Shown here in pieces: positions 40,255 to 57,870 of a stretch of 64,000 nucleotides of DNA. The notes beneath the pieces are model-generated. The model saw only the letters and a program-made list of their open reading frames with translations. It searched no databases and had not been told where the DNA came from. Positions within the stretch are counted from its first letter, which is position 1, and each line of letters starts with the position of its first letter. This DNA is from Saccharomonospora cyanea NA-134. GTDB taxonomy: Bacteria > Actinomycetota > Actinomycetes > Mycobacteriales > Pseudonocardiaceae. The stretch spans positions 3,580,325 to 3,644,324 of the forward strand of contig NZ_CM001440.1 of the NCBI RefSeq assembly GCF_000244975.1, written 5' to 3'. The position numbers and the translations under genes are program-made.

Positions 40255-41247
40255 CTACGGCACGGCCAGGCTCACCGGTTGTCCCTCGGCGGCCGACCGG
40301 TAGGCGGCCAACGCCACCCTCGTCGCCGCCAGCCCGTCCTCACCGGTGACCGACGGCGTGCGGCGGTGATGGACCGCGTCGAGGAACTCGTCGATCATGC
40401 CCTGGTTGGCGTCGGATCCCCACATCGGTCGGGTGATCCCCTGAGAGCCACCGTGGACGGTGAGGTACTGGCTGAACGCGTCGACGGCGATGGTGCCGTG
40501 CTCCCCCACCAGTTCCAGAGTGAGCCCACCCCACGTGGGGTAGGTCTCGGGGCGGCTCCAGCTGGAGTCGATGGTCGCGAACACACCGTCGGCGTAGCCG
40601 AGCATCACCAGCCCACCCGTCTCGACGGTGACGGTGTCGCGGTGGAGGACCCGGTTGGTCGCCGCGTACACCTCCACCGGGTCCTCGCCGAGGTACCAGC
40701 GCAGGATGTCGGCGAGATGCACCGTGTGGTCCATGATCGCGCCGCCACCGGCCAGTACGGGGTCGGCGAACCAAGCGCCGTGCCGCGCGGGCAGCACGCT
40801 CTGGTTCGTGCCGGTGCACGCGTGGAGGCGGCCGAACGCTCCGTCGGCGAGGAGCGCGGCGCACTCCCGTATCGGCGGGCTGAAGCGCATCGGGAACGCC
40901 GTCATCAACGGCACGCCCGCGCTCGCGCACGCCTCGACGATGGCGCGCGCGTCCTCCTCGGTCGTGGCCAGCGGCTTCTCGCACAGCACGGCGACCCCGG
41001 CGGCCGCTGCCTGCTCCACGAGGCGGCGGTGATGCACGGTCTCGGAACAGACGACGACCGCGTCCGCCCCGGCGTCCAACAGTTGCTCCGGCGAGGAGAA
41101 CCACGGCACCGAGTGCGCGCTCGCCCAACGGCGGCCGCGTTCGACGTCGTCGTCGGCGACCCCGATCACCTCGGCACCGGCGCGTCGGACGTTGTCCACA
41201 TAGGCGTCGACGTGGATGTGAGCGGTGGACAGGAACCCGATTCTCAT
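40255..41247 (-). CDS. Gfo/Idh/MocA-family oxidoreductase
   Basis: From the ATG at 41247 the 330-residue protein has an N-terminal NAD(P)-binding Rossmann domain (RIGFLSTAHIHVDAYVD) in which the usual GxGxxG is altered to STAHIH. It also has the family signature CEKPLATTEEDA (catalytic Lys) and a C-terminal domain with GGGAIMDHTVHLADILRWYL, where an Asp-x-x-x-His pair forms the active site. Such enzymes oxidise or reduce sugars, often at C3. It is the last of six co-directional genes and overlaps the preceding oxidoreductase by 4 bases. The two enzymes may work in sequence on 3-keto sugars produced outside the cell; that link is inference. Confidence 0.88.
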   Translation of the reverse strand: MRIGFLSTAHIHVDAYVDNVRRAGAEVIGVADDDVERGRRWASAHSVPWFSSPEQLLDAGADAVVVCSETVHHRRLVEQAAAAGVAVLCEKPLATTEEDARAIVEACASAGVPLMTAFPMRFSPPIRECAALLADGAFGRLHACTGTNQSVLPARHGAWFADPVLAGGGAIMDHTVHLADILRWYLGEDPVEVYAATNRVLHRDTVTVETGGLVMLGYADGVFATIDSSWSRPETYPTWGGLTLELVGEHGTIAVDAFSQYLTVHGGSQGITRPMWGSDANQGMIDEFLDAVHHRRTPSVTGEDGLAATRVALAAYRSAAEGQPVSLAVP

Positions 41248-42248
41248 GCGATTACCTCCACGTCCGTGGTGCGACCGGTCGTGAGCGACCGCCCGACCGC
41301 ATCCGCGATCCGTACCGCGGCCAGCGCGTCCTCGGCGGTGACGATCGGCTTCGCCTCGCCCCTGAGGACGCCGAGGAAATGGCGTAGCTGGGCGGTGTAC
41401 GGCGACTCGGCGAGTGGGCTGGACGGCAACGGCATCTCCCCGGCCCGCGCGCCGGCTCGCAGGGTCGGGCGTACCGGCGCGCTGCGGTCGGAGTCGAACT
41501 CGAGGAGGCCGTGGGTTCCGGCGATCTCCGCCCGGGTGCGGAACGTCGGTGGTGGGTGAGCCCACGAGGCCTCGACATGGCTGAGTGCGCCTGACGAGTG
41601 TCGCAGGATGGCCACGACGTGGTCGGTGTCGAGGTCCGGCCGGGCGGCTCGCACACTGCGTGCGTGCACGTTCACGACGTCACCGGCGACCCAGCGGGCG
41701 TAGTCGAGGTCGTGCACCATCAGGTCGAAGTGGAGACCGCCCGAGCGCGCCTCGTCGAAGTACCAGTCGTCGGCGGGCTTCTGGGGCCGGAACGTCGCTC
41801 GCGTCAACCGGATCACCGCGGGTTCGCCGATCTCCCCCGCGTCGACCGTGGCCTTCGCCGCCGCGTACTCGGGGAAGAACCGCACGACGTGAGCGGGCAG
41901 GAGCGGCACCCCGGCCTCCCGGCAGGCCGCGATCATGTCGGCGGCCAGGGCTGGGGTGCGGGCCAACGGTTTCTCGCACACCACGGCACGTCCGGCCCGT
42001 GCGGCGCGGACGGTGATCTCGTGGTGTAGGTCGGTGGGAACGCAGATGTCGACGAGGTCGACCCGGCCGAGAAGTTCGTCGAGATCGGTGCACGCGTGCA
42101 TGCCGTAGTCGTGGGCCAACCGCATGGGCGGGTGTTCGGGGCGAGCCATGATCGCGGTGAGCCGGGCGCCGGGGCAGGCGGCCCACGCCGCCGCGTGCAC
42201 CGAGCCCATGAAACCCGCGCCGACGATGCCGATCCGTGTCTGATTCAC
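41244..42248 (-). CDS. Gfo/Idh/MocA-family oxidoreductase
   Basis: From the GTG at 42248 (GGAG upstream) the 334-residue protein has the full cofactor loop RIGIVGAGFMGSVHAAAWA, the signature CEKPLARTPALAADM with the catalytic Lys, and the C-terminal catalytic pattern SGGLHFDLMVHDLDYARWVA. These are inositol/glucose-type dehydrogenases, which interconvert sugars and keto-sugars with tightly bound NAD(P). Its start overlaps the stop of the sugar permease gene, tying it to the ABC importer. Substrate unknown; a keto-glycoside or inositol-like compound is plausible. Confidence 0.9.
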   Translation of the reverse strand: MNQTRIGIVGAGFMGSVHAAAWAACPGARLTAIMARPEHPPMRLAHDYGMHACTDLDELLGRVDLVDICVPTDLHHEITVRAARAGRAVVCEKPLARTPALAADMIAACREAGVPLLPAHVVRFFPEYAAAKATVDAGEIGEPAVIRLTRATFRPQKPADDWYFDEARSGGLHFDLMVHDLDYARWVAGDVVNVHARSVRAARPDLDTDHVVAILRHSSGALSHVEASWAHPPPTFRTRAEIAGTHGLLEFDSDRSAPVRPTLRAGARAGEMPLPSSPLAESPYTAQLRHFLGVLRGEAKPIVTAEDALAAVRIADAVGRSLTTGRTTDVEVIA

Positions 42249-43129
42249 TTGATCGCTCCTGATGTCAGACCGCGGACGAACTGCCGCGAGAAGATGATGA
42301 AGAGAGCCAGCATCGGCAGGGCCGCCAAGGCCAGCACCGCGAGAACCGCGTTCCAGTCGGTGACGAACTGCCCGAGGAACAGTTGTGTGCCGAGGGTGAC
42401 CGTGCGGACGCTCTCGGCGGGCGTGAGGATCAGGGGGAACCAGAGGTCGTTCCAGATCGGCAGCATCGTGTACACGCCGATGGCCGCCAGGCCCGGTCGC
42501 ACGAGCGGGAGAACGAGGGAATAGACCCGGTACTCGCTGGCCCCGTCGATCCGGGCGGCGTCCTTCAACTCGTCGGGCACCTGCTTGAAGAACGCCGTCA
42601 GGACGAACACGGCCAGCGGTAGCCCCATCGCGGTGTAGACCAGAACGAGGCCGGCGAGCGAGTTCACCAGGCTCAGATCGACCATGAGGTCGAGAATCCC
42701 CACCGTTCCGAGCCGGATCGGGATCATGATCCCCACCGCCATGTACAGGGCGAGTGCGGTGAGGCCCGCGAAGCGGTACTCGGCCAGCGCGAAGGCCAGC
42801 ATCGACCCCAGCAGCAGCACCAGGAACACCGTGCTGACGGTGACGATGAAGCTGTTGAGGAAGTACAGCTCGAAGTCGGCCCTGGCGAACACCGTCTCGA
42901 AGCCGCTGAGGTCGAACGTGTCGGGCGTCGGGAGGGCGAACGGCTCTTCGAAGATGGCTTGGCGGGACTTGAACGCGTTCATGACGATCAGCGCGATCGG
43001 CGCGCACGCCACGGCGACGTAGGCGAGCAGGATGACGTGCGGGACGAGGGTGCCGACCCGCGTTCGCCACGGGCGGCGCCTTCTCGGCGGCCGGATGACA
43101 CCGGAGTCCGGGATGCTCACAGCGGTCAC
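42245..43129 (-). CDS. Carbohydrate ABC transporter permease (MalG type)
   Basis: The 294-residue protein has six membrane segments. The EAA loop that contacts the ATPase is in DELKDAARIDGASEYRVYSL, followed by PLVRPGL. This is the MalG-type permease of a CUT1-like sugar importer. It lies 10 bp after the MalF-type permease gene and overlaps the downstream oxidoreductase by 4 bases. No ATPase gene is present in the locus; actinobacterial CUT1 importers commonly share a distant MsiK-type ATPase. Confidence 0.92.
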   Translation of the reverse strand: MTAVSIPDSGVIRPPRRRRPWRTRVGTLVPHVILLAYVAVACAPIALIVMNAFKSRQAIFEEPFALPTPDTFDLSGFETVFARADFELYFLNSFIVTVSTVFLVLLLGSMLAFALAEYRFAGLTALALYMAVGIMIPIRLGTVGILDLMVDLSLVNSLAGLVLVYTAMGLPLAVFVLTAFFKQVPDELKDAARIDGASEYRVYSLVLPLVRPGLAAIGVYTMLPIWNDLWFPLILTPAESVRTVTLGTQLFLGQFVTDWNAVLAVLALAALPMLALFIIFSRQFVRGLTSGAIK

Positions 43130-43139: not shown

Positions 43140-44117
43140 TCACAGTTGGTAGCTCTCGACGCGCCGCTGCCAGCCGAAGAAGTACAGGAGGACGCCCGCC
43201 ATGATGAGGAGGAACATCATCGTGGCGACCGTGGCGCCCATGCTGCTGGAGCCTTGCTGCAGCTGGAATCCGAAGAAGGTGCGGAAGAAGAGCGTGCCCA
43301 TGATGTCCGAGGCGAAGTCGGGGCCGGCCAGGGCGCCCTTGACCGTGTAGATCAGGTCGAACGCGTTCAGGTTGGCGACGTAGGTGATGACGGAGACGAT
43401 CCCGACGGTGGGCAGGATCAGCGGGAACTTCACCCGCCAGAACGTCGTCCAGGCGTTGGCGCCGTCGATGGTCGCCGCCTCGACGAGGTCGTCCGGGATG
43501 CTGACGAGAACCGCGTAGAACAGCAGCATCGGGATGCCGATGTACTGCCAGACCGACATCAGGGCAAGGGTGATCAACGCGGTGCTCGACTGACCGAGCA
43601 GCGGCGTGTCGACGAAGCCCCACACCGGGCTGAGGATGAGCTGCCAGACGAATCCGACGATGACCACGGAGAGCGTCGTCGGGATGAACAGCAGCGTGCG
43701 GTAGGTCGCGCGTCCCCGCAGCTTGGGCGCGGCCAGCAACGCCGCCAGTAGCAGGCCGATCGGGTTCTGCACCACGAAGTGCACGGCGAAGAACAGCAGG
43801 TTGTTCCACACCGCGTTCCAGAAGGCTCCGGCGAGCAGGTCGTCGGAGAGCAGCCGGACGAAGTTGTCGAGTCCGACGAACGTCTGCACGCCGTCGCGCG
43901 ACGCGAACATGCTGAGCCGCAGTGAGTCGAGCAACGGGTAGACCATGAACACGGTGTAGATCACCACGGCCGGCGCGATGAAGACGACGAGGTGGGTGCG
44001 AAACCGACGTCGACGGTGCCGGGCGAGGGGGCCCGGTCTCGGCCCGGTCGCGGCGCTCGCAGTCGTGGTCGGATCACCGGTCTCGCCGGGCGGCTTCGAG
44101 ATCAGAGGTCGGCTCAT
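43140..44117 (-). CDS. Carbohydrate ABC transporter permease (MalF type)
   Basis: From the ATG at 44117 the 325-residue protein has a basic N-terminal tail of ~40 residues and six membrane segments, with the EAA loop in DDLVEAATIDGANAWTTFWR. This is the MalF-type partner. It lies between the solute-binding lipoprotein gene (67 bp upstream) and the MalG-type permease gene (10 bp downstream). Together they form a disaccharide- or oligosaccharide-type importer, with the ATPase encoded elsewhere. Confidence 0.92.
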   Translation of the reverse strand: MSRPLISKPPGETGDPTTTASAATGPRPGPLARHRRRRFRTHLVVFIAPAVVIYTVFMVYPLLDSLRLSMFASRDGVQTFVGLDNFVRLLSDDLLAGAFWNAVWNNLLFFAVHFVVQNPIGLLLAALLAAPKLRGRATYRTLLFIPTTLSVVIVGFVWQLILSPVWGFVDTPLLGQSSTALITLALMSVWQYIGIPMLLFYAVLVSIPDDLVEAATIDGANAWTTFWRVKFPLILPTVGIVSVITYVANLNAFDLIYTVKGALAGPDFASDIMGTLFFRTFFGFQLQQGSSSMGATVATMMFLLIMAGVLLYFFGWQRRVESYQL

Positions 44118-44184: not shown

Positions 44185-45486
44185 CTACTGCTGCTGCGGC
44201 TCGTACCAACGCTCCAGGCCTGCCTGGACCCGACCGGCGGCCTCCCGCGGTTCGACGGTGCCGTTGAGCAGTTGCGCGCTGAGGTCCCACAGCTGGTTCT
44301 CGAGGTTGGGTTCGCCACGCGAGAGGATCTGGTACGAGTTGCGGATGGTCGACTCGCACTCCTCGCGCCAGCTCAGGAACTCCTGCGCCAGCGGGTCCTC
44401 GACGGTGACGTCGTGCTCGGACATCGGGAAGAACCCGGGCAGGGCGTTGGCGTAGAGCTCGGCGAACTCGGCGGTGGTCGTCCATTCGAGGAAGGTCCTG
44501 GCCTCCTCCGGGTGGTCGGTCGCCGCGTTCATGCCGATCCCGAGGTCGGTGTGGTCGCTGATGTAGCAGGTGTCCCTACCCTCCGGCAGCGGCGGTGGGA
44601 ACGCCGCCATCTCGAAGTCGGTCTGCTCGTTGAACAGCGCGATCTCCCACGAGCCGGTCGGGTAGATCGCTCCGCGACCGAGGGTGAACAGGTTCTGCGC
44701 GTCCGGATAGGTGATCGACTCGTAGCCGTCGGGCAGGTACTCAGCCCACGAGGCGAGCTCGGTGAACGCGGCGACGTACTGGTCGTCGTCGAAGCGCTCG
44801 GTGCCCTCGATCAAGCCTTGCCGCCCGGCCTCGCCGTGCCAGTAGTTGGGACCGATGTTCTGCAGTCCCATGGTCGCGGCCTCCCACTGGTCCGCCGTCC
44901 CCATCACCAGCGGGGCGTACGTGCCGTCGGCGGCGATCGTGTCGAGGACCTCGTGGAACTCCTCCTCCGTCCTCGGCGGCGTGAGACCGAGCTCGTCGAA
45001 GATCTCGGTGTTGTAGAGGAAGCCGTGGATCACCGAAGCCATGGGGACGCAGAACGACTCCGACCCGTCGTCGGTCGACCACGCGGCGCGGGCGATGTCG
45101 CTGTAGGAGTCGAGTCCCTTCAGACCCGTCAGGGGCGCCAGGTGGCCCTCCTCGTAGAGCCGTAGTGCGACGTCGAACGGGCGGCAGGTGATCAGGTCGC
45201 CTGCGGTGCCTCCGGAGAGTTTGGCGTCGAGCGCGGCGTCGTACTCGTCCGGTGACGTCGGCTGGAACGTCACCCGGATGTTCGGGTGCTGCTCGTGGAA
45301 GGCAGGCAGGATGACGTCCTCCCAGATCGCGAGGTCGTCGTTGCGCCAGCTCTCCAGAACGAGCGTGACCTGGTCCCCCTCGCCGGTGTCCGCGTTGTTC
45401 CCTCGCGGATCGACGCTGTCGCCACACGCGGTGACGACGAGGACGGCGACCACCATCGGGGCCAGTCGGCCGAGTCGGTTCGGCAT
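44185..45486 (-). CDS. Carbohydrate ABC transporter solute-binding lipoprotein
   Basis: From the ATG at 45486 the 433-residue protein has a lipoprotein signal (hydrophobic MVVAVLVVTAC with the lipobox Cys near residue 21), then a family 1 extracellular solute-binding fold: VTLVLESWRNDDLAIWEDV, AFHEQHPNIRVTF, SFCVPMASVIHGFLYNTEIF, GRGAIYPTGSWEIALFN. It captures a sugar outside the membrane for the two permeases encoded downstream. It is separated from the upstream secreted dehydrogenase/hydrolase gene by a hairpin that may tune relative expression. Confidence 0.92.
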   Translation of the reverse strand: MPNRLGRLAPMVVAVLVVTACGDSVDPRGNNADTGEGDQVTLVLESWRNDDLAIWEDVILPAFHEQHPNIRVTFQPTSPDEYDAALDAKLSGGTAGDLITCRPFDVALRLYEEGHLAPLTGLKGLDSYSDIARAAWSTDDGSESFCVPMASVIHGFLYNTEIFDELGLTPPRTEEEFHEVLDTIAADGTYAPLVMGTADQWEAATMGLQNIGPNYWHGEAGRQGLIEGTERFDDDQYVAAFTELASWAEYLPDGYESITYPDAQNLFTLGRGAIYPTGSWEIALFNEQTDFEMAAFPPPLPEGRDTCYISDHTDLGIGMNAATDHPEEARTFLEWTTTAEFAELYANALPGFFPMSEHDVTVEDPLAQEFLSWREECESTIRNSYQILSRGEPNLENQLWDLSAQLLNGTVEPREAAGRVQAGLERWYEPQQQ

Positions 45487-45571: not shown

Positions 45572-48500
45572 TCACACCGGCTTCGGGCCTCCACCGCGGC
45601 CGATGTCACTGCGTGCCGCAGCGCTGCCGATGGCGGTTCGTTCCTTGTCGGTGAGCACGCCCTCGGCCACCAACCGGCCGGTCACCTCCCGCACGTGGTT
45701 CACGAAGGCGCCGTGGTTTCGCCACTGCGCGTCGTCGAGGATGAGGTCGTTGACCGAACACCCGTCCTCGCGCACGTGATTGGTGACACCGCTGTCGATG
45801 ACGCCGATCACGACGGTCTCCCGCGTGTCCGGATCGGGGCAGGCTCCTGGTTCACCGGCGGTGATGGTGAACTCGACCGACTGCCAGTCCTCGACGTTGC
45901 CGGCCCGGTCCACGGACCGGAACTCGACGGTGTGCGTACCGGGCTCGATCACAGTCAGCGGCCCCTCGTAGGTCGACGGCTCCTCCTCGCCGCCCATGCG
46001 GTACTCGGTCCGCGTGACCCCGGACGTGGCGTCCTGGGCCCCCAGGGTCACCGTCACCGGGCTGGTGAAGGCGTCACCGTCCTGCGCGCCCTCCACGGAC
46101 GCCTCGGTGGCCGGAACCGTCTGGTCGATCAGGAACTCGATCTCCTCGATCCCCGTTTCGTCGCCGTCGTCGGCAGGAGTGACCTCGAAGGTCGAGACCA
46201 TTCCGGTCCACGTCGTCGGGTCATCCGGATCCGGGCGGTTCGAGTGCGGCGTGCAGTACACGTAGTACGTGCCCTGTTCCGTCGCCTCGAAGTAGAACGG
46301 ATCGTCCTCCCAGTCCGACCCCAGCGGGCGAGAGGCCAGGATCTCGCCGTTCTCGTCCGTGATCACCACGTCGTGGGGATATCCGGGAACGTACTGGAAC
46401 TTGACGACGTCGCCCTGTTGCACGCTGAACTCGGTCTCACTGAAGTCGAACCCGTTCGGTCCGACGAGGATCTCCTTCTCGGACGGTTCGCCACCGGGCA
46501 CCACGGCCCGGTAGTCGATGTTGTGGATGCCGTCCTGGTCGAAGAGCACCGGCTCGGTGTACGTCCGCCACTCGGACTCGTCGGTCCTCGGACGCCACTG
46601 CAGCTGCGCCTCGGGGTCGTTCGATTCCAGGGTGAGTGTGACGGGCGAGACGTACCAGCCATCCGAGCCGTCCGGTTCGGCCGGGCCCAGTGAGGCGTCG
46701 ACCGTCAGCTCGGCGTCGTGTTTCTTGATCCAGACGTTGCGGAACTCGACGTTCTCACCCGCCGCCTGACCGTCGGCGTGGTTCTGGATACCGACGTAGC
46801 CGTCGAGGCCGCGGCTTCCGTCACCGGTGTATGTGGCGACCTCGGTGCCGTTGAGGACGACGCGGTACTCCTGCCCGATCGCCTCGATCTCCATCGTGTT
46901 CCACTCGCCGACCGGGTTGGTGGCCAGCGGTTCGGCCGGTGCGAAGGTGTAGATCGCCCCGGTCCGGGTCAGCGGATCGTCGGTGTTCTCGTAGATCTGG
47001 ACCTCGTAGCCCTCGTCCACCGGCTTCCACGGATCCCCTTCCGGGTCGGGGAAGCGAACGAACACGCCGGAGTTGTCGGCGGGATCCTGGACCCGGAAGT
47101 CGACTCGCATGGTGAAGTCGTCGAACGTCTGCTGGTCGTACCAGAGCAGGCCCATCCCGCCGTACGGCTGGAGCAACCCGCACTCGTCGACCTCGAACCC
47201 ACCGGGCCCGGCGTGGGTCCATCCGTCCAGTGTCTCGCCGTCGAACAAGGGTGTGAAACCCTCCGGAGGCGTCTGCGGCTCCGGACACTGATCCTCGCCG
47301 AGCTCCTTGATCCAGACGTCACGGAAGTAGACGGTGTCCGTGACGCGGTTGTTCTGCAGCCCGACGTACCCGGACGAGAGGTCGCGCCCCGACCCTTGCG
47401 GGTTCTCGTACTCGTTCACCAGCACATCGTTGATCCACACCCGGATCATCGGGTCGTCGACCTCGATCTCCATCGTGTTCCACTCACCGGCCACCGTCGG
47501 GAACGACGTCGGTGCCTGGAAGGTGTAGATCGATCCGGTCTTCGACTTGTCCGCGGCGTCGGGTGACCCTCCGGTGTCGTCGATCTGGATCTCGTAGCCC
47601 TGTCTCACTCCGATCCACGGGTCGTCACCGGGGTCGGGGAACCCGATGAACACACCGGAGTTGTCGTCCTCCGCCACGGCCTTGAACTCGACGTGCAGCC
47701 GGTAGGAGCCGAACTCCTCGCCGTGCCACAACATCCCGAGTCCCTCAGGATCACCGACCGACTCCAGGGCACACGTGCCCGGCCTGTCCTCGTCCGGGAC
47801 GACGGCGAATCCGCCCGGTCCGGCCTGGTTCCAGCCGTTCAGCGTCGCTCCGTCCCACAGCGGCCGGTACCCGTCCTCGGCAGGCTGGGTGGCACACTCC
47901 GGGTTCGGCCCGTCACCACCGACGTAGTCGATGCGGTACAGACCCGCGTTCGGGCTGTCCCCGAACGAGCCGCCCTCCAGCACGTAGAGCGATCCGTCCG
48001 GACCGAACTGCCCGTCCATGAGGCCCGACCACGTCTCTCCGGGCATGAAGTCGTCGATCGCGGTCACGGTCTCGTTCTCGTCGAGCTCGGCCGTCTTCAC
48101 GTGACCGCGGTGGTAGTCGAGGAGGAACCAGCGTCCGTCGTAGGCTTCCGGGAACTTCGTCGGGGAGTCGAGGTTCTCGTCGTAGCGATACACCGGACCC
48201 GACATCGGCCCACCGGCTCCGGAACCCATGTCGAGGAACGGCTCGGGAATCGGGTTGATGTCCCGGCCGGGCCACCCTTCCCACGTCTGCGGCCAGCCCG
48301 TCCAGCTGCGCGGATAGTAGATCGTCGCCGGCTTCACCGGCGGCGTGCGCTCGAGCCCGGTGTTGTGGGGCGAGTCGTTGATCGGCCCGTTCTCGCAGTC
48401 GTAGAAATCACCGAGCGGCTCGTTCGTCTCGTAGTCCCACGGGCGGTACGGGTAGTTGTTGCCGATGCAGAAGGGATAACCGAAGTTCGCCGGCTCCGAC

Positions 48501-49444
48501 GTCACCATGTACTGGTCGAATCCCCACGGTCCCCGCTCGGTCCAGTCGCCCAGACGGTCGGGTCCGTAGTTGCCGATGTGCAGGCGGTCGGTCGCGGGGT
48601 CGATCGAGATCCGGAACGGGTTCCGGAAACCCATCGCGTAGATCTCCGGCCGGGTCTTGCCGCCACCCTCCTCGGCTCCCGTGAAGAGATTGCCCTCCGG
48701 GATCGTGTAGGTTCCGTCCGGCTGCGGAGTGATCCGCAGGATCTTCCCACGCAGATCGTTCGTGTTGCCCGACGTGCGGCGATCGTCGTTGTACCAGTGA
48801 GTCGAACGACTGTCGAGCGGCGAGTACTGGTCGTTCAGATCCGGGGTCGACTCGTCACCCGTGCTCAGGTAGAGATTGCCCGCCGAATCGAATTCGAGAT
48901 CCCCCGCCACGTGGCAGCAGTTCGTCTTGTTGTAGGGCACCTTCAGCAGGACGACTTCCGACTCCACGTCGAGTCGGCCGTCCTCGACCACGAATCGCGA
49001 GAGGAAGTGGTTGTTCTCGTCTCGGCTGGTGTAGTACACGTACACCCAGCCGTTCGTGTCGAATTCTGGGTCCAACGCCAAACCGAGGAGTCCACCCTCC
49101 TGGTTCTTGGAGCCCTCGATGTCCGGGTCCGGCGGCAACGGATGGTCGTCGAAGACACTGAGTTCGGCTGCGACGCTCACCTCACCGGTATCCGGGTGAT
49201 AGATCCGGATGACGCCGTCGCGGCTGGTGACGAACACCCGGCCGTCGTCCGCGATGTCCATCGTCATCGGCTGCGCGACGTCGGAGGTCAACAGCACTTT
49301 CTCGAACTCGTCGTCCGTGGCCGACTCGGCGGACGTGCCGGACGAGATCTCGTCGATCGCCCGCTCGGTGGCGGATGCGTTGATCATGGGTAACAACAGC
49401 AGCAGGGCCAGGGACAAAAGGAACGGTGCGGATCTGATCCGCAT
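45572..49444 (-). CDS. Secreted multidomain protein: PQQ-type sugar dehydrogenase, two 3-keto-glycoside hydrolase (DUF1080) domains, copper domain
   Basis: From the ATG at 49444 (GAGGAAG upstream) the protein has 1290 residues and a signal peptide (FLLSLALLLLLPMINASA). Domains in order: a glucose/sorbosone dehydrogenase-type beta propeller (~40-505, with HVAGDLEFDSAGNLYLSTGD); DUF1080 copy 1 (~520-715, GYRPLWDGATLNGWNQAG); DUF1080 copy 2 (~725-905, GFTPLFDGETLDGWTHAG); a chitobiase/Ig-like segment (~915-1000); and a cupredoxin domain (~1005-1092) with type-1 copper ligands His1024, Cys1064, His1067 and probably Met1082. An Ig-like repeat (~1100-1190) and a conserved tail follow. DUF1080 proteins include 3-keto-disaccharide hydrolases. 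The protein could oxidise a glycoside at C3, cleave it, and pass electrons to copper. It heads the sugar-import operon. Confidence 0.9.
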   Translation of the reverse strand: MRIRSAPFLLSLALLLLLPMINASATERAIDEISSGTSAESATDDEFEKVLLTSDVAQPMTMDIADDGRVFVTSRDGVIRIYHPDTGEVSVAAELSVFDDHPLPPDPDIEGSKNQEGGLLGLALDPEFDTNGWVYVYYTSRDENNHFLSRFVVEDGRLDVESEVVLLKVPYNKTNCCHVAGDLEFDSAGNLYLSTGDESTPDLNDQYSPLDSRSTHWYNDDRRTSGNTNDLRGKILRITPQPDGTYTIPEGNLFTGAEEGGGKTRPEIYAMGFRNPFRISIDPATDRLHIGNYGPDRLGDWTERGPWGFDQYMVTSEPANFGYPFCIGNNYPYRPWDYETNEPLGDFYDCENGPINDSPHNTGLERTPPVKPATIYYPRSWTGWPQTWEGWPGRDINPIPEPFLDMGSGAGGPMSGPVYRYDENLDSPTKFPEAYDGRWFLLDYHRGHVKTAELDENETVTAIDDFMPGETWSGLMDGQFGPDGSLYVLEGGSFGDSPNAGLYRIDYVGGDGPNPECATQPAEDGYRPLWDGATLNGWNQAGPGGFAVVPDEDRPGTCALESVGDPEGLGMLWHGEEFGSYRLHVEFKAVAEDDNSGVFIGFPDPGDDPWIGVRQGYEIQIDDTGGSPDAADKSKTGSIYTFQAPTSFPTVAGEWNTMEIEVDDPMIRVWINDVLVNEYENPQGSGRDLSSGYVGLQNNRVTDTVYFRDVWIKELGEDQCPEPQTPPEGFTPLFDGETLDGWTHAGPGGFEVDECGLLQPYGGMGLLWYDQQTFDDFTMRVDFRVQDPADNSGVFVRFPDPEGDPWKPVDEGYEVQIYENTDDPLTRTGAIYTFAPAEPLATNPVGEWNTMEIEAIGQEYRVVLNGTEVATYTGDGSRGLDGYVGIQNHADGQAAGENVEFRNVWIKKHDAELTVDASLGPAEPDGSDGWYVSPVTLTLESNDPEAQLQWRPRTDESEWRTYTEPVLFDQDGIHNIDYRAVVPGGEPSEKEILVGPNGFDFSETEFSVQQGDVVKFQYVPGYPHDVVITDENGEILASRPLGSDWEDDPFYFEATEQGTYYVYCTPHSNRPDPDDPTTWTGMVSTFEVTPADDGDETGIEEIEFLIDQTVPATEASVEGAQDGDAFTSPVTVTLGAQDATSGVTRTEYRMGGEEEPSTYEGPLTVIEPGTHTVEFRSVDRAGNVEDWQSVEFTITAGEPGACPDPDTRETVVIGVIDSGVTNHVREDGCSVNDLILDDAQWRNHGAFVNHVREVTGRLVAEGVLTDKERTAIGSAAARSDIGRGGGPKPV

Positions 49445-49733: not shown

Positions 49734-49758
49734 TTAGTAAGGAAAGCTTCCTCACTAT
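49734..49758. promoter_or_regulatory. Probable ROK-regulator operator
   Basis: TTAGTAAGGAA, then AGC, then TTCCTCACTAT form a 25-bp imperfect palindrome (9 of 11 pairs), 47 bp before the ROK gene start. The form TTAGTnAGGAA...TTCCTnACTAA is typical of NagC/XylR-type ROK operators, including actinobacterial ones. Confidence 0.75.
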
Positions 49759-49804: not shown

Positions 49805-51013
49805 GTGGTGGCACACTTCGAATTCGGCAGTGGACCGCAGGTGCTACGGCAAATGAACTGCGCGGCCGTACTCACCGCCATCCGTGCCACGGGAACAGCG
49901 CGCGTCACTGACCTCATGCGTGCCACCGGCTTGTCCCGTCCCACGGTCAGCGCAGCGATTTCCACGTTGATGGCCGACGGCTGGGTCGAGGAGACCGAGG
50001 CCGCCGACGTCGAATTACCGCGCATGGGCAGACCCGCCCGCGTCCTGCGATTCCGCGCGGACGCCCAGTACGTTCTCGGCGTCGACGTCGGACCGCACAA
50101 GATTCACTGCGCGGTCGCCGACCTCAATGGAACCGTTGTTTCGCAGATTCGTCGTGAGGTCACCGAATCGGACACGCCGACAGAATTACTCGGCCGGGCC
50201 GAGGAGACCATACAGCGAGTGCTGGACGCCGTGCCGGTACCGAGGTCCTCGCTCGCAGCGGTGGGCATCGGGACTCCGGGGATAGTCGACCGGCGCGGAG
50301 CCGTCCTGCAGGCGCCGTCCGTCCCCGGCTGGGACTCACTCGAACTCGGCAGCCTGTTCTCGCGCATCGCCCCCTGCCCTGTGCACACCGAGAACGACGT
50401 CAATCTCGCCGTCCTGGCCGAACGGTGGAAGGGCGCCGGCGACGATGCCGACAACTTGATCCTCGTGCAATGGGGTGTCCGCGTGGGTGCGGCAATCCTG
50501 GTGAACGGCCAGTTGCACCGTGGCGCCCACGGAGCGGCGGGCGAGATCGGGTTCGTCGAGCTCGACACCGAACCACAGGGTGTGCAGGCCGACGGGCTCG
50601 GTCCGTTGGAATCGGCGGTCGGCACCGACTGGATCCTGCGCCGGGCGCGTGACCTCGGGGACTCAAGCCCGGATGCCGCCACGGTCCTCATCGCCGCGGA
50701 CGGTGGTGATTCGCGGGCGTTGCAGGTGCTCGACGAGGCATGTGACCGGCTGGCACGAGGTCTGGCCTCCTTCGTGTCGGCGATCGACCCGGAACTGATC
50801 ATCCTCGGTGGCACCATCACGCTCGCGGGCGATGCGGTGCTCGCCGAGATGCGGCGGCACCTGACCCGGCGCGCGCTGGTCATGCCTCGGCTGGCGCTCT
50901 CCCGTCTGGGCGACGACGCGGTGGCGTTGGGCGCCGTGCGAGTGGCCCTCGCCGACGCACAACGACGACTGCTGGACGTCTACGCGACGTCGTCCCCCGT
51001 CGAACAGCGGTAG
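49805..51013 (+). CDS. ROK-family transcriptional regulator
   Basis: The 402-residue protein (GTG start) has an N-terminal winged helix (VTDLMRATGLSRPTVSAAIS, LMADGWVEE) and a ROK fold. LGVDVGPHKIHCAVADLNG is the phosphate-binding turn, AAVGIGTPGIVD the second signature, and HTENDVNLAVLAE holds the catalytic-site residues. The sugar loop is followed by GAAGEIGFVELD. In most ROK proteins a zinc site, CxCGxxGCxE, comes next; here the equivalent stretch is TEPQGVQADGLGPLESAVG, with no cysteine. It is divergent from the sugar operon with a palindrome between them, so it most likely represses it. Confidence 0.9.
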   Translation: MVAHFEFGSGPQVLRQMNCAAVLTAIRATGTARVTDLMRATGLSRPTVSAAISTLMADGWVEETEAADVELPRMGRPARVLRFRADAQYVLGVDVGPHKIHCAVADLNGTVVSQIRREVTESDTPTELLGRAEETIQRVLDAVPVPRSSLAAVGIGTPGIVDRRGAVLQAPSVPGWDSLELGSLFSRIAPCPVHTENDVNLAVLAERWKGAGDDADNLILVQWGVRVGAAILVNGQLHRGAHGAAGEIGFVELDTEPQGVQADGLGPLESAVGTDWILRRARDLGDSSPDAATVLIAADGGDSRALQVLDEACDRLARGLASFVSAIDPELIILGGTITLAGDAVLAEMRRHLTRRALVMPRLALSRLGDDAVALGAVRVALADAQRRLLDVYATSSPVEQR

Positions 51014-52212: not shown

Positions 52213-54168
52213 TCACTCAGCCCGGTGGATCCACTGCTTGCCTTCGGCGGCGATACCTTCGAGTACGTGGAGGGTGTTGCCGAAGCCGAACGATTCGAGG
52301 GTCAGCTCGGCCATGTCCTCGGGCTTCTCCTGCACCATGTCCTTCGGTGCGAGCAACCCCGGCTCCTCGTCCACAACCTGCATCTTCCTGGGATCTCCGT
52401 TGACCAGCGTCAGCTCCAGGGTGTGCGGGAGGCCGCTCCGGGTGGTCACGTGCACCGAGGCGACCGCATCGAAGCGGTAGTTGGTGCGTTCGTGATCCTT
52501 GAACTCGGCTTTTTTGAAATCGAGTTCGGCACTCACTTCACGAACGCCTTCGACGGTTATCAGGAACAACCGGATCTTGTAGCGCGAATAGCGCCAGGGA
52601 CCGTAGGAGACCCTCGCACGCCTGTAGAACCTCGCCGGCGACTGCAGGAACGTGTAGGCGATGATGTCGCGCCAGGCGAGTTGGTACTCACGCAGTGCCT
52701 CGTCGAGGAACACCGTCTTGTCCGCGTTGAGCCAACGTTCCATCTCCTCGTCCGTCGGCATCGCCTCGTGCACCTTGTCGGTCCATTTCCTGTGCCATTC
52801 CCTCCGTTTGTCGAACTCCCGCTTGCCTTCCGCGCTGTCGTCGGCGAACCGCAGACGTGCCAATATGATCGCCAACCACCGGCGCGTCGCGATCCAACCG
52901 GCGACCAGCGCCATGGCAGAGGACAGCACAGCAATCACGGGGCGGGCACTCACCGCGGCCTCGACGACCGTGACCACACCGGCGACCGCGGCCAGTAGTC
53001 CACCGCAACTCCAGACCCGCGTGGAGGTCGAGGTACGGTAGTGCTCTCGGTGGTCCCACAGCGTCCCTTCTCGCCAACGGTCCTGGACGTCGCGGACGAG
53101 GCGGCGAATCAGCCACGTGACTTCACCCAGCTTGGCCCTGCCCCGGTACAACTCGATGATCTCGTCCCGAAGCGCTCTCCGCACGCCCGCCGTCTCGCTC
53201 AACCAGGCTGTCCGGTCCCGATCCGCCTCGGGCGCGTACTTGTGGAAGTAGTGCTCGAACCGCCTGTCGACGCCCTTGGAGAACGAGCCCTCCAACGGTC
53301 GCTCCACTCTCGGAATCCCAGTCAGCTCGCGCTCCTTGACACGCAGCCGCTGTGCCCGGAACCGCCATTCCACGGCATTACGCAGACCGACACACAGTGC
53401 GGCTCCGGTCAACGGGAACGCGAGAATCGCCAGCGTCGATCCGCTGGACAGCACGGCCGCACCCAGGTAGCCGAGTGCTACCAGGAAGGCGGCGGACGAG
53501 ACACCGATGGTGATCTTCTCTCGTGCGGTGACGAAGCGCGGCTCGGGTTCGCGTACCCGGGGTTCCGCGGGTTCCGGCTCGAAGAAAGCCCACACCTTGT
53601 CCTGGCGGTCGTTTTCCTGCTGCACGTGTTTCGCCGCGTCGCGCATGTCCGCCCACAACGCGTCTTTGACGGTCCCGTCCAGCAACATGCCGAGATGGTC
53701 GCCGATCAACACTCTTTGCGGCGACGGTAGTGCGCGGAGAGCCTTGAGTTCGGGTTCCGGATCGGCTTCCACGTCACCCATGCGACTCAGCAGCGCACAA
53801 ATGGTTTCGATACCCTGTTTCCAGGCGTCTTCGGAGTACTTTTCCAGCGAGGCCTGGGCAGCTCTCAGTTCCTCCCTCTCGCCACGGTCGAGTTCCCGGA
53901 AAGAACGTTTGCTGAGCATCGCCAGAAACCAGTGGAAACGGACCTGCGCGCTGTCGTGACCATCGGCGATCGCGTCCTTGATGAAGTCAAGCGCCCGACC
54001 GGGCAGGCCGCCTTTCAGCGCGTTGACTCCTTTCTGGAACTTCTGTTCGGCGGACATACCCGGAACGTTCATGTACACCGTGGAGTTGTGTACCTGTTGC
54101 GCTTGGATGCCGACCGTCGAGTTGTCCGCGGCCGTGTTGGACACCGTCGGCTCCTGGTCCGCCATCAC
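52213..54168 (-). CDS. Membrane protein with an N-terminal amyloid-like motif, function unknown
   Basis: The 651-residue protein (GTG at 54168, or ATG at 54165) starts with a short motif, NSTVGIQAQQVHNSTVYM (residues 16-33), shared with the protein encoded just upstream. A helical TPR-like region (~40-200, AEQKFQKGVNALKGGLPG) follows, then two membrane hairpins near residues 226-270 and 394-440 and a long cytoplasmic C-terminal region rich in charged and aromatic residues. I know no family for the membrane part. The coupled position after the nucleoside phosphorylase-like gene and the shared motif suggest a receptor/effector pair assembling through that motif, perhaps acting at the membrane. 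Role inferred. Confidence 0.8.
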   Translation of the reverse strand: MMADQEPTVSNTAADNSTVGIQAQQVHNSTVYMNVPGMSAEQKFQKGVNALKGGLPGRALDFIKDAIADGHDSAQVRFHWFLAMLSKRSFRELDRGEREELRAAQASLEKYSEDAWKQGIETICALLSRMGDVEADPEPELKALRALPSPQRVLIGDHLGMLLDGTVKDALWADMRDAAKHVQQENDRQDKVWAFFEPEPAEPRVREPEPRFVTAREKITIGVSSAAFLVALGYLGAAVLSSGSTLAILAFPLTGAALCVGLRNAVEWRFRAQRLRVKERELTGIPRVERPLEGSFSKGVDRRFEHYFHKYAPEADRDRTAWLSETAGVRRALRDEIIELYRGRAKLGEVTWLIRRLVRDVQDRWREGTLWDHREHYRTSTSTRVWSCGGLLAAVAGVVTVVEAAVSARPVIAVLSSAMALVAGWIATRRWLAIILARLRFADDSAEGKREFDKRREWHRKWTDKVHEAMPTDEEMERWLNADKTVFLDEALREYQLAWRDIIAYTFLQSPARFYRRARVSYGPWRYSRYKIRLFLITVEGVREVSAELDFKKAEFKDHERTNYRFDAVASVHVTTRSGLPHTLELTLVNGDPRKMQVVDEEPGLLAPKDMVQEKPEDMAELTLESFGFGNTLHVLEGIAAEGKQWIHRAE

Positions 54169-55313
54169 ACACCCCGGACGGCTGCGATCACGGCGGCGAC
54201 CTTCGCCGCCAGTTCCGCCACCTCACCGATCAGGCCGCGCAGCCGCTTGAGTGCGAGCACAAAGGCGCTTTTGCCCTCGGGAGTGTCCTCTTCCAGCGCC
54301 TCGCCCGCGAGGTCCAGTTCCGCTTGTGCCGCCTCGTAGGTGGCCTCGTCGAGGCTCCCGTTCGCCCGCTCCTGCGCGATCAAACGACGAAGAGCGGCCA
54401 GCTGTTCCTCGAGCTTGCTCCCCTCGGCGGCTCCGGTGCCGACACCCATCACCACGGTGCTGTTGGTGACGTGCCCGGCCTGAATGCCCACCGAACCGAT
54501 CGCGTTGTTGTTGGTCGTGCCCCCGCCGTTCATCGCGCTACGTGCTCCCATTCTCGGCATCTCCGCTTCTTCCGCAATCAATTCCTGAGCGAGCCGGACG
54601 GCGAAGGCCGCCGCGTTGTCGGCGGCACGCTGTTGCCACTGCGCGCTGTCCGTGGTGGTCTTGCTACCGTCGGCACGATCGCTGATACCTCTCACCACGG
54701 CGACCGGTGAGCCGTTCAGGTGAGCCGCCTGTGCCACCCCCGCAGCCTCCATCTCGATGGCGAGCGCGTCGTTGTAGTGTCGGCGAATCCATTGGGCCTC
54801 GTACGAAATCCGCGAGTCGTGAACGATCTCTCCCGCCGCGACAGCTCCGAAGTGGACCTCCGGACCACTTTCCTGCGCGAGACCACGACGCCAGTCCCCC
54901 ACTCTGGCGAGATGGTGGGCGAGCTGGCTCACGCCATACGGCATCTCCCACACCCGAGGGCGAGCTTTGAGGCCGTCGTCCTCGCTCGTACCCCCGTGGT
55001 AGGCGTAAACGTGGGTGGCCACCACGACATCTCCCAGAGCCGTGCTCGGCCACAGACCGCCGGCCACTCCGACGAACAGGAGCGCGGTCGGCGAGAATTC
55101 GACTATCGCCCGCTCGGCGAGCACAGCGGCGGTATGGTTTCCCTTCCCCACCAGGCCCAACGCGACGCGGTATGTCGTGCCTCGCAGCGTGCCGGTCTCG
55201 AAACGGGTGCCTGTCGCATGGCGGTGCACCCTCGGATTGGCCATCCTCCGAAGGACGGCCTCGTATTCCAGGTCCAAGGCGGTGAGGATCACCACCACGC
55301 TGTCGTTCGTCAA
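54165..55313 (-). CDS. Nucleoside phosphorylase (MTA/SAH nucleosidase-like) domain protein with amyloid-like motif
   Basis: A TTG start at 55313 (GGGGAGG upstream, overlapping the Nudix stop) gives 382 residues. Residues 1-250 are a PNP_UDP_1 fold: VVVILTALDLEYEAV, ALLFVGVAGGLWPSTALGDV, a catalytic-site EMEAAGVAQAA and VVRGISDRADG. These are the marks of nucleosidase-like domains, also used as effectors or sensors in bacterial conflict systems. Residues ~267-290 carry IGSVGIQAGHVTNSTVVM, nearly identical to the N-terminus of the next protein. The C-terminus is helical and alanine-rich, possibly amphipathic (VAELAAKVAAVIAAVRGV). The gene is coupled on both sides, forming a three-gene operon. 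Confidence 0.87.
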   Translation of the reverse strand: MTNDSVVVILTALDLEYEAVLRRMANPRVHRHATGTRFETGTLRGTTYRVALGLVGKGNHTAAVLAERAIVEFSPTALLFVGVAGGLWPSTALGDVVVATHVYAYHGGTSEDDGLKARPRVWEMPYGVSQLAHHLARVGDWRRGLAQESGPEVHFGAVAAGEIVHDSRISYEAQWIRRHYNDALAIEMEAAGVAQAAHLNGSPVAVVRGISDRADGSKTTTDSAQWQQRAADNAAAFAVRLAQELIAEEAEMPRMGARSAMNGGGTTNNNAIGSVGIQAGHVTNSTVVMGVGTGAAEGSKLEEQLAALRRLIAQERANGSLDEATYEAAQAELDLAGEALEEDTPEGKSAFVLALKRLRGLIGEVAELAAKVAAVIAAVRGV

Positions 55314-56038
55314 CTGTCCTCCCCGGTTTCCGGCCGACCCGGACGGACGATCGGCGGATTCAGTAACGTGCGCGAACCTGCGCGGAACAGCCGTGCGGGT
55401 CGCCCTCTCGCCGTGCGTCGTGACGAGCCAGTGGCGACGATGAACCCCGGAACCCCCTGAACCTTGCGGTAGAAGTTCCTCGGGTCGAGCCGGACGCCCC
55501 ACACCGCCTCGTACACCCGTTGCAACTCGGCGATCGTGAACGGCGTCTCGCAGAAGGCCGTGGCAAGGGCAGTGTGTTCGAGCTTCACCCTGGCACGCTC
55601 GACACCGTCGGCGATGATGTCGACGTGGTCGAAGGCCAAGGTGAGCCTGCGGTGCAATATCTCCTCGACAGGAACCCAGTGTGCGTCGGCAGCGTCGGTA
55701 CCCGGTGCCGGTTCGGGCAGTCCCGGCGCGATCGCCAGGTAGGCCACGGAGATGATGCGGCCACGTGGATCCCGGTCAGGATCGCCATAGGCGCTGATCT
55801 GCTCGAGATGCAGCCGGGCGGCGTCCAGACCGGCTTCCTCGGAGAGTTCCCGGTGCGCGGCCTGTTCGAGGCTCTCACCGGGGTTGTTGAGGAAACCGCC
55901 GGGAAGCGCCAGCGCACCACGGTACGGCTCGACGCCCCGCTCGACGAGCAGGACGTGGAGGCGCGAGTCGCGCAGGGTCAGGATGACCAGGTCCACAGCC
56001 AGCAGGACGGGCGGTGGCGCCCATCGATTCTCAGACAC
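55310..56038 (-). CDS. Nudix-domain regulator (NrtR-like: Nudix plus winged helix)
   Basis: The 242-residue protein (GTG start) has a Nudix domain and, from residue ~140, a C-terminal region with FTIAELQRVYEAVWG and DPRNFYRKVQGVPGFIV. This is the winged helix of NrtR-type regulators, in which the Nudix fold senses NAD-related nucleotides such as ADP-ribose. The Nudix box reads GGFLNNPGESLEQAAHRELS followed by EEAGL. It keeps RE..EE but has one extra residue between the Gly and the first Glu, so catalysis may be weak. It is first in the operon with the phosphorylase-like and membrane proteins, and may control it by binding the AT-rich palindrome just upstream. Function as a regulator is inferred. 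Confidence 0.85.
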   Translation of the reverse strand: MSENRWAPPPVLLAVDLVILTLRDSRLHVLLVERGVEPYRGALALPGGFLNNPGESLEQAAHRELSEEAGLDAARLHLEQISAYGDPDRDPRGRIISVAYLAIAPGLPEPAPGTDAADAHWVPVEEILHRRLTLAFDHVDIIADGVERARVKLEHTALATAFCETPFTIAELQRVYEAVWGVRLDPRNFYRKVQGVPGFIVATGSSRRTARGRPARLFRAGSRTLLNPPIVRPGRPETGEDS

Positions 56039-56494: not shown

Positions 56495-57142
56495 GTGTCG
56501 TTCCGCTACTACCTCTACGTCAGCGACAGCAAGGTGGACATGTTGCTCGCGCAGATCGAACCGGGGTTCACACGCAAACGCACCGCGGAGATCAGTCTCG
56601 GGATGTCCGTCGCCGGTGCCAAGCGGACCGTCGAGGCGGCCGGGCCCGGCCGGATCGCCCGGCTGGAACGGGTTGTTCGGCATCTGCACGAGCACGGTGA
56701 CGTCGGTACCGTCGACGAGCCCGGCCAGTTCTTCTGGGGCCTGCTGCCCATGCAGTGGGGGTTGGTAGGCGAATCGGCCGGCTCCGCGACCGTGTACTTC
56801 GGGGGCCGGGACGAGCGCACGCTCGTCGGTCTGGGCGGTTCCGCCGGACACGTGCTCGGAACACAGCAGGCGACACCGTCCGAGTTCCTGTCTCCCTCCT
56901 GGTTGCCGGCACTGCTGCACGCGTTGCACGATCCGGAAGGCGACGAACAGGGGCAGGACGACGACCGAGCCGCCCTGTCCACCGTGCACCGCGCCCACAG
57001 CCGCCTGCGGGGTCCCGCCCAGAACGTCGAGTTCGTCGCCAAGCGACTGCTCCACGGCCCGAGCCCGTATCCGGAGCTCGACGGCCGCGACGACATGCGG
57101 GTCCTGCTGGGAAGTCCGCTCTACGTCGCGTTGGTCGACTGA
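56495..57142 (+). CDS. Uncharacterised protein resembling the DUF7019/SAVMC3_10250 family
   Basis: I chose the GTG at 56495 because GAGGAGG precedes it; the product then begins MSFRYYLYVSDSKVDMLLAQ and has 215 residues. This opening is characteristic of a streptomycete family that I recall under the names SAVMC3_10250 or DUF7019, with no known function. Other parts: FFWGLLPMQWGLVG, ATVYFGGRDERTLVGLGGSA and a C-terminal NVEFVAKRLLHG. There is no signal peptide or membrane segment. The next gene follows by 14 bp on the same strand, and the pair converges on two kinase genes. Confidence 0.75.
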   Translation: MSFRYYLYVSDSKVDMLLAQIEPGFTRKRTAEISLGMSVAGAKRTVEAAGPGRIARLERVVRHLHEHGDVGTVDEPGQFFWGLLPMQWGLVGESAGSATVYFGGRDERTLVGLGGSAGHVLGTQQATPSEFLSPSWLPALLHALHDPEGDEQGQDDDRAALSTVHRAHSRLRGPAQNVEFVAKRLLHGPSPYPELDGRDDMRVLLGSPLYVALVD

Positions 57143-57156
57143 CACCGGAGGCACTC

Positions 57157-57870
57157 GTGCGGACAAGGCCGCTGGCCTCGATACTCGAGGCCACGTGCGA
57201 CGCGATCCTCGACCTGACGCTCTTCCCCCTGGCCCTCGAAGCCGACAGCAACGGCGCGTACGTCCTGGGCGTGATGGGTGAGGACGCACTGCGCACCCGT
57301 AGCCGCGGCCCCTACACGCCGGACAACCTGCCGCCGGAGGTGGTCTCGACCATCCGGTTCGCCGCTCTGCGGTGGTCGGTCAAGCCGGAGCGGCCCGAGT
57401 TCACGGTCGAAGGCGGGGGACGGTGGCCTCGGCTGCTGATGGTGCTCCCGCACAGCAAGGTGTCGATCCGGTTCGTCGTGCCCGAGGACGCGCCACCGAT
57501 CCCCGAACCCGCACCTCACAACGCCGGGCCGGGCGGCGACATCCGTCTGGCGCTCGAGTTCGTGGTGCGGACGCTCGACGCCACCCGGATGCGGACGGGG
57601 AAGGAACCGCCCCTGTCGCTGCGGTTGAGTTTTCCCGAGGACCCCGACTACGACTCGAAGGTCGCGAGTGTGCCCGACGACTGGGCGGACCTCCTCCTGC
57701 CCGCCATCCCGACGATTCAGCTCGACCGGCGCCGGTGCAGCCGCAGGCAGCGGAAAGCCCACGACGACGCCGTCCGCACGGTCGCGTACACCGATCAGAC
57801 GATCGACCCCCTGGGCCGGCACGGTTTCACCACGTGGCTCGGGTCCGCGCGCGTGCAGGACCCCCACTGA
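57157..57870 (+). CDS. Hypothetical protein paired with the DUF7019-like protein
   Basis: The start is the GTG at 57157, with GGAGG 6 bp upstream; this gives 237 residues. It reads SILEATCDAILDLTLFPLAL near the N-terminus and SIRFVVPEDAPPIPEPAP in the middle, with a basic run RRRCSRRQRKAHDD near the C-terminus. It looks soluble and mixed alpha/beta. I do not recognise it. The 14-bp spacing to the preceding gene suggests the two products act together. Its end is 3 bp from the end of the convergent FHA-kinase gene. Confidence 0.65.
   Translation: MRTRPLASILEATCDAILDLTLFPLALEADSNGAYVLGVMGEDALRTRSRGPYTPDNLPPEVVSTIRFAALRWSVKPERPEFTVEGGGRWPRLLMVLPHSKVSIRFVVPEDAPPIPEPAPHNAGPGGDIRLALEFVVRTLDATRMRTGKEPPLSLRLSFPEDPDYDSKVASVPDDWADLLLPAIPTIQLDRRRCSRRQRKAHDDAVRTVAYTDQTIDPLGRHGFTTWLGSARVQDPH

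Follow-up and report, generated by a model that had tools for sequence, protein, structure and literature searches.

The window analyzed here is a 64,000-nucleotide stretch of the Saccharomonospora cyanea NA-134 genome (contig NZ_CM001440.1, positions 3,580,325 to 3,644,324), and our subject is a minus-strand gene within it for a predicted exported protein of 1290 amino acids that combines a glucose/sorbosone dehydrogenase (GSDH) propeller, two DUF1080 domains, and a plastocyanin-like copper domain. The ATG start codon lies at 49444 and the stop codon ends at 45572 (window coordinates, used throughout); an earlier interpretation of this DNA (the original prediction) had named no strand, and the program-made open reading frame opens at a TTG 4 codons upstream of the ATG. 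The gene and its parts are as follows.

45572..49444, minus strand: predicted exported multidomain protein, 1290 amino acids, in the order GSDH, DUF1080, DUF1080, OmpL47-type domain with presumed copper-domain insert, OmpL47-type domain, C-terminal module
49361..49444, minus strand: putative Sec-type signal sequence, residues about 1-28, assigned by inspection
47909..49333, minus strand: GSDH six-bladed propeller, residues 38-512, with H178, R274-N275, and Gly-Pro at 294-295 and 305-306
47297..47875, minus strand: DUF1080 / 3keto-disac_hyd domain 1, residues about 524-716, borders set by eye
46724..47260, minus strand: DUF1080 / 3keto-disac_hyd domain 2, residues 729-907, Pfam match
46502..46654, minus strand: OmpL47-type domain, first part, residues 931-981, covering profile positions 1-52 of 68 and scoring under the curated cut-off
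46169..46492, minus strand: plastocyanin-like copper domain, residues 985-1092, with predicted ligands H1024, C1064, H1067, and M1082
45863..46066, minus strand: complete OmpL47-type domain, residues 1127-1194, profile match
45572..45850, minus strand: unnamed C-terminal module of ~90 amino acids, residues 1199-1290, helices in the model

The original prediction described a secreted fusion of 1290 residues, and the frame proved to be real. Pfam recognizes GSDH (PF07995) at residues 57-334 (E value of 2.4e-31), two stretches of 3keto-disac_hyd/DUF1080 (PF06439; whole-protein E value of 2.4e-79), and a Copper-bind domain, while export is suggested by an N-terminal hydrophobic signal judged by eye. 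The better of the two DUF1080 stretches, at residues 729-907, spans profile positions 1-187 of 187, so that the match to the 3-keto-disaccharide hydrolase family extends over the whole domain; such a match is in itself no proof of 3-keto chemistry, because the family also contains an endo-xanthanase (excerpt of PMC10881899). A chance fusion is excluded, since 11 loci from a species collection and one congener encode near-full-length relatives. The first OmpL47-type match lacks its end and TGIEEIEFLIDQTVP follows the copper domain, which suggests that the copper domain is inserted into an OmpL47-type domain. The C-terminal module gave no Pfam match in any copy scanned and no NCBIfam match for the window copy; its identification as FIMAH, a module present in some relatives, is unsupported, as profile scans returned no FIMAH match to it. 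The same module is also found in a separate DUF1080 protein of Saccharomonospora saliphila (L021:5366-5629) and at a paralog locus in the window's own genome (L057:9825-10076).

Relatives were sought with a pattern scan of one genome per species (84,980 species) that required exact short peptides, which distant forms can escape. It returned 38 loci, eleven of which (L016 to L026) match near full length with 60-80% identity in the best segment. Six of these are from Jiangella (L016, L018, L019, L020, L025, and L026), and the others are from Haloactinopolyspora alba (L022), Georgenia satyanarayanai (L023 and L024), S. saliphila (L021), and a metagenome bin (L017). Among 150 genomes from the window's bacterial family, full-length matches were confined to the own genome and a congener (G111, locus L065, 96%). 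The carriers found thus number 13 genomes, the own genome included, and the search for proteins of the same domain order that the original prediction had recommended was answered by 12 other genomes, with the qualifications that L021 has no second DUF1080 domain and that the frame of L025 is broken. The L025 copy (Jiangella aurantiaca, L025:7845-9911) is split by this frame break in the assembly and was left out of our alignment of 11 proteins, the window protein included, all of which have the GSDH, first DUF1080, and copper domains. The window protein alone is without a segment of ~200 amino acids between GSDH and the first DUF1080 domain. This segment matches DUF1349 in the scanned relatives L016, L017, L018, L021, L022, L023, L024, and L026, although the match is under the cut-off in L018 and L023; a Pfam scan of L065 found no DUF1349 match.

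These proteins belong to a larger actinobacterial class of GSDH-DUF1080 multidomain proteins. The own genome encodes four more long class proteins (L002, L003, L004, and L005, with L003 scanned to the locus end only), which carry ThuA plus varying PKD, CBM6, DUF1080, and F5/8 or FIMAH modules. Six proteins from other genomes of the family and one from Nocardiopsis (L027) vary likewise in ThuA, PKD, CBM6, DUF1080, DUF1349, ricin-type lectin, and FIMAH. GSDH and DUF1080 occur together in 6 of these 11 scanned relatives (L003, L005, L027, L095, L101, and L103), and nine more Nocardiopsis loci match GSDH and DUF1080 parts in the pattern scan only. Several genera therefore share the GSDH-DUF1080 architecture, to which the copper domain is a rare addition. 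The original prediction had considered the domain combination undescribed. This stands for the full architecture, of which we found no prior description in the literature searched, a coverage with few subscription papers, and not for the GSDH-DUF1080 fusion itself. The same literature contained no report pairing DUF1080 with pyrroloquinoline quinone (PQQ) or sorbosone dehydrogenase with ThuA.

The proposed copper ligands His1024, Cys1064, His1067, and Met1082 lie where the original prediction had placed them and are invariant in 11/11 aligned sequences (window and 10 relatives). Copper-bind matches residues 996-1068 with an E value of 7.7e-5 and 23.5 bits in the whole protein (cut-off, 21.2 bits), and with 9.6e-7 and 29.6 bits when the domain is scanned alone. 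A profile built from the domain matches plastocyanins (best E value of 4.7e-8), and in the profile alignment H1024, C1064, and H1067 fall on the plastocyanin H, C, and H, which we take to be its copper ligands. M1082 lies beyond a long loop (H1067-x14-M1082), outside the plastocyanin profile alignment, in a G-M-V setting that to us recalls pseudoazurin. In the C-terminal structure model (386 amino acids; predicted local distance difference test [pLDDT], 77; predicted template modeling score [pTM], 0.35), Foldseek found plastocyanin 1TEG with a probability of 1.00, a template modeling (TM) score of 0.58 by target length, and a root mean square deviation of 7.4, at rank 47, behind swamping Ig/FnIII chains. 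The domain thus has the two His, one Cys, and one Met of a type-1 site within a cupredoxin-type match, and very probably binds a type-1 copper. It is not a common actinobacterial module: at an E value of 1e-5 its profile matched 1 of 396 genomes of the phylum, the own genome.

The propeller was modeled with AlphaFold2 from 51 sequences (pLDDT, 86; pTM, 0.91). Its best Foldseek match in the PDB was 2ISM (E value of 1.1e-21; TM score of 0.86 by target length); next came chains of sGDH, HHIP, Asd, and AA12. For residue-level comparison, 54 class members were aligned from tblastn matches at an E value of 1e-20 only, excluding L036 (short and split) and ten overlapping own-genome loci. H178, R274, N275, G294-P295, and G305-P306 are invariant in all 54. 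Aligned to the canonical sGDHs L105 and L106, H178 corresponds to sGDH His144, R274-N275 to Arg228-Asn229, and G305-P306 to Gly247-Pro248; in sGDH, His144 and the Arg228-Asn229 pair are catalytic-type residues and Gly247-Pro248 lies in the calcium loop (excerpts of PMC6881789 and PMC6881810). Two GSDH genes of the own genome (L014 and L015) were dropped as canonical controls, lacking the R-N-P text and the R-x-R motif, and canonical sGDHs of other genomes were used in their place. L014:1-2361 and L015:982-2610 (both minus strand) contain neither R-N-P text nor an R-x-R(D/E) motif, a hint that the GSDH label may cover non-PQQ proteins.

The original prediction also proposed an operon that starts with this gene and continues with a sugar ABC importer and two Gfo/Idh/MocA genes, while a ROK regulator is transcribed divergently. 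The sugar-binding protein, permease, and Gfo genes do lie on the same strand, separated after the enzyme gene by 85, 67, and 10 bases and then by two 4-base overlaps (with the listed starts).

44185..45486, minus strand: sugar-binding protein of an ATP-binding cassette (ABC) importer (SBP_bac_1), lipoprotein-like start
43140..44117, minus strand: ABC permease 1 (UgpA/MalF-like), profile match
42245..43129, minus strand: ABC permease 2 (UgpE/MalG-like), profile match
41244..42248, minus strand: Gfo/Idh/MocA oxidoreductase 1, IolG- and levoglucosan-dehydrogenase-like, under curated cut-offs
40255..41247, minus strand: Gfo/Idh/MocA oxidoreductase 2, profile match
49805..51013, plus strand: divergent ROK-family regulator with winged helix and ROK domain (Pfam)
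49734..49757, no strand assigned: imperfect palindrome, likely ROK operator, conserved in the divergent promoter

The two Gfo proteins match the models for IolG, UDP-GlcNAc 3-dehydrogenase, and levoglucosan dehydrogenase, all under curated cut-offs, and Gfo 1 weakly matches a disaccharide 3-dehydrogenase model (5.8e-5); such matches are compatible with C3 chemistry and do not prove it. When the divergent promoters of seven loci were aligned (window, L065, L016, L018, L025, L022, and L026), the spacer was mostly variable and one block was conserved, which in the window contains TTAGTAAGGAAAGCTTCCTCACTA (z of −3.6 as a folded DNA strand). The palindrome occurs once in the window with 3 mismatches allowed (0 expected), and a degenerate form with two mismatches is found at this place alone in the 5.4-Mb genome. 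It is likely to be the operator of the ROK protein.

By tblastn, the order ROK/enzyme-sugar-binding protein-permease-permease-Gfo-Gfo is kept in seven relatives (L016, L018, L019, L020, L022, L025, and L026), and L017 retains it up to the contig end. Two other arrangements were seen. In L021, a ROK gene lies upstream on the enzyme's strand, and a separate DUF1080 gene is also found upstream; Peripla_BP_4, ABC_tran, and BPD_transp_2 genes follow the enzyme, and after them comes a Gfo gene on the opposite strand. In L023, a Gfo gene and genes of the Peripla_BP_4 and ABC_tran types lie directly upstream of the enzyme, with no ROK match nearby (tblastn with the window neighbors); L024 likewise has a Gfo match in that position (tblastn). 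Across these three arrangements, sugar import and Gfo/Idh/MocA genes therefore stay near the enzyme despite gene exchange.

Elsewhere in the window, two adjacent minus-strand genes (52213-54168 and 54165-55502) share the motif VGIQA(G/Q)xVxNSTV, which we take to resemble the RHIM-like motifs of bacterial amyloid signaling. One encodes a PNP_UDP_1-type protein and the other a protein without a Pfam match, and they may be an immune effector and its partner. A gene for an FHA-protein kinase (57874-59229, minus strand) adjoins one for a large protein kinase with WD40 repeats (59061-62594, minus strand), and a nearby open reading frame (56755-57870) has no Pfam match.

We propose that the protein would be the front end, in a single exported polypeptide, for the use of one glycoside or oligosaccharide. 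Beyond the cell membrane, the propeller would oxidize one of the substrate's sugar units, the copper domain within its OmpL47-type spacer would accept the electrons singly, and the two DUF1080 domains would cleave the oxidized (3-keto-type) glycosidic bond. The released sugar would then be taken up by the ABC importer and reduced or isomerized by the two Gfo/Idh/MocA enzymes, with the ROK protein acting at its single operator as a repressor to induce the unit when the sugar is present. The parts of this proposal differ in strength. That exported processing of a glycoside feeds import and Gfo/Idh chemistry is probable. For the DUF1080 domains, action on keto-glycosides is somewhat favored, and for the propeller, a working dehydrogenase is an even call. 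The complete sequence of oxidation, copper transfer, cleavage, import, and intracellular interconversion falls a little short of that, and the use of PQQ by the propeller, if it is a dehydrogenase, is more doubtful still.

Several observations on copper and on PQQ weigh against the proposal. Copper-bind is weak in some orthologs: 8 of 10 full-length proteins reach an E value of 0.001 and 6 of 10 the Pfam cut-off, with L017 and L026 missing the former and L016 and L065 also under the curated cut-off. None of the 11 scanned relatives without this locus has a Copper-bind match, and copper is therefore not needed for the function of the class. In the propeller, the residues that anchor the PQQ carboxylates in sGDH are replaced (K377 by H445, R406 by G474, and R408 by M476). 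Across the 54 class members, the K377 position holds His in 13 and Lys in at most 2, the R406 position Arg in 7 and Lys in 5, and the R408 position Arg in none, whereas the canonical sGDHs L105 and L106, from the same bacterial family, retain the Lys and R-Y-R. The profile alignment over this end is weak (−2.1 bits) but concordant with the replacement. Set against sGDH and Asd, the window protein thus has the six-bladed propeller and the catalytic residues and lacks Lys377, Arg406, and Arg408. PQQ might be bound even without these anchors, because fungal AA12 enzymes bind it without a Lys377 contact, through another set of residues (excerpt of PMC6881789). We defined AA12 by sequence family together with the anchors Arg273, His539, His560, and Arg621; the propeller model has AA12 structural matches (6h7t and 6jt5), and a profile search at an E value of 0.001 gave no AA12 sequence match.

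PQQ synthesis served as a genomic test. The own genome carries pqqE and pqqC about 280 bases apart and contains no PQQ alcohol dehydrogenase (TIGR03075) and no canonical sGDH (TIGR03606, E value of 1e-40); some other protein should therefore use its PQQ. As proof of PQQ dependence, these two genes were rejected after the survey of the 13 carriers, of which only the own genome and S. saliphila have pqqC; no pqqC match was found in G111, a single-contig assembly. One of the three Nocardiopsis genomes that encode ThuA-type relatives carries pqqC. In the 150 family genomes, a strong GSDH-class match (E value below 1e-60, at most 4 candidates scored per genome) was present in 79, and pqqC occurred in 48 of the 79 versus 51 of the 71 genomes without such a match (odds ratio, 0.61; Fisher P = 0.17). 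The control enzymes behaved otherwise: the PQQ alcohol dehydrogenase (TIGR03075 over cut-off) coincided with pqqC in 39/40 genomes, the exception having a split pqqC, and canonical sGDH (TIGR03606 over cut-off) in 7/7, five of them in one genus. When only genomes with neither control enzyme were counted, a strong GSDH match was found in 28 of 54 with pqqC and 31 of 51 without (P = 0.43), so that PQQ makers without a known client show no enrichment of the GSDH class; the own genome belongs to the 54. Five genomes with pqqC matches under the cut-off, including G050 with a split gene, were scored as lacking it; the genomes are not independent, drafts may miss genes, and PQQ can be scavenged. By this yardstick of our own, which scavenging could evade, the GSDH class shows no tie to PQQ synthesis and still behaves unlike known PQQ enzymes. 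The PQQ-type dehydrogenase of the original prediction is thus weakened: the GSDH propeller and catalytic-type residues are present, but the PQQ anchors are replaced, the class has no association with pqqC, and 11 of 13 carriers are without that gene.

These results can be read in other ways. The propeller might be a non-redox, HHIP-like module that binds a carbohydrate, possibly together with calcium; the DUF1080 domains would then act as conventional glycosidases, and the copper domain would either use its copper to some other end or be simply a further beta module. The PQQ anchors replaced across the class, the lack of a link to PQQ synthesis that the two true PQQ enzyme classes possess, and the rank of HHIP among the nearest structures all fit such an arrangement, as do the CBM6, PKD, and ricin-type lectin modules on relatives and the endo-xanthanase within DUF1080 (excerpt of PMC10881899). 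We take it as a serious rival that is nevertheless less likely than not, as a pure binding module has no obvious need for the H178, R274, N275, and Gly-Pro pairs that are invariant in 54/54, and the four type-1 copper ligands are invariant in the 11 aligned sequences.

A true PQQ dehydrogenase with different anchor residues, most of whose carriers would take PQQ from the environment, has precedents in the other PQQ anchoring of AA12 and in the dependence of Escherichia coli on environmental PQQ (excerpt of PMC6881789), and an own genome with pqqC and pqqE but neither control enzyme leaves the GSDH class as a possible client. The figures just given speak against it, with pqqC in 2/13 carriers and no association in 150 genomes, while canonical sGDH of the same family had pqqC in 7/7; moreover, just 13/54 class members share the His that replaces Lys377 at H445. 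We regard it as doubtful, if slightly less so than the binder. Less probable than either is that the GSDH class oxidizes sugar without textbook use of PQQ, relying on a different quinone, on a cofactor formed in situ, or on none, and that its rare copper-bearing branch couples the propeller to a blue-copper domain of its own, with oxidation and cleavage on one exported chain. Finally, the copper domain might donate electrons to a copper oxidase such as a lytic polysaccharide monooxygenase (LPMO) and so drive oxidative attack on a polysaccharide, for which a fungal PQQ pyranose dehydrogenase sets a precedent (excerpt of PMC5960967). This is very improbable: a search that covered LPMO_10 alone among LPMO families found no LPMO_10 gene in the own genome, which makes electron donation to LPMO_10 unlikely in S. 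cyanea.

GSDH proteins usually go by the name of PQQ-dependent sugar dehydrogenases, and our analysis gives no support to PQQ as the cofactor of this class, which is strongly matched in 79 of 150 family genomes. Redox activity in the copper-bearing branch would give access, through a single gene, to sugar oxidation outside Gram-positive cells and to the fate of the electrons, and would add a new oxidase to the 3-keto pathway for glycosides; without such activity, an annotation in wide use would have to be corrected.

Among the known systems closest to the window protein are the ThuA/GSDH/PKD/CBM6/DUF1080 proteins, whose GSDH is about 40-51% identical over the propeller and several of which also have DUF1080 and Ig-like spacers. 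These differ in carrying varying ThuA, PKD, CBM6, DUF1349, and lectin modules, and none of the 11 scanned bears a copper domain, whereas the window protein matches none of ThuA, PKD, and CBM6 and has the copper domain and two DUF1080 domains; no function for them was found in the literature searched. With sGDH and Asd it shares the fold, the catalytic-type His, the Arg-Asn pair, and a Gly-Pro loop, but its class has K377, R406, and R408 replaced, large insertions, and no link to PQQ synthesis. With plastocyanin and pseudoazurin its copper domain shares the His...Cys-x2-His...Met set and a cupredoxin-type match; it differs in having 14 residues between the second His and the Met, compared with about 4 in plastocyanin, and in apparently being inserted in an OmpL47-type domain.

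In design, a close parallel is the fungal enzyme CcPDH (AA12-AA8-CBM1), in which a six-bladed propeller is likewise joined to an electron-transfer domain of its own and to a carbohydrate module (excerpt of PMC6881789). CcPDH carries heme b rather than copper, and of the two, only CcPDH has proven PQQ binding. By analogy, the copper domain would be the natural one-electron acceptor here, taking the part that heme b plays in the fungal AA12-AA8 protein. In metabolic logic, the parallel is the 3-keto-disaccharide route of Caulobacter and Bacteroides, which also places DUF1080, a transporter, and a sugar oxidoreductase in one locus. Lactose use in Caulobacter depends on LacABC together with a DUF1080 protein and a transporter, and two epimerases and a sugar reductase are also required; a membrane-bound periplasmic dehydrogenase oxidizes the lactose, and the DUF1080 protein is proposed to cleave the 3'-keto-lactose (excerpt of PMC9007349). 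In Caulobacter, LacABC rather than a GSDH propeller serves as the oxidase, and each part is a protein of its own. This 3-keto route would be the nearest worked-out logic for the window locus, with the propeller standing in for the oxidase, the DUF1080 pair for the hydrolase, the ABC importer for the carrier, and the Gfo pair for the reductase.

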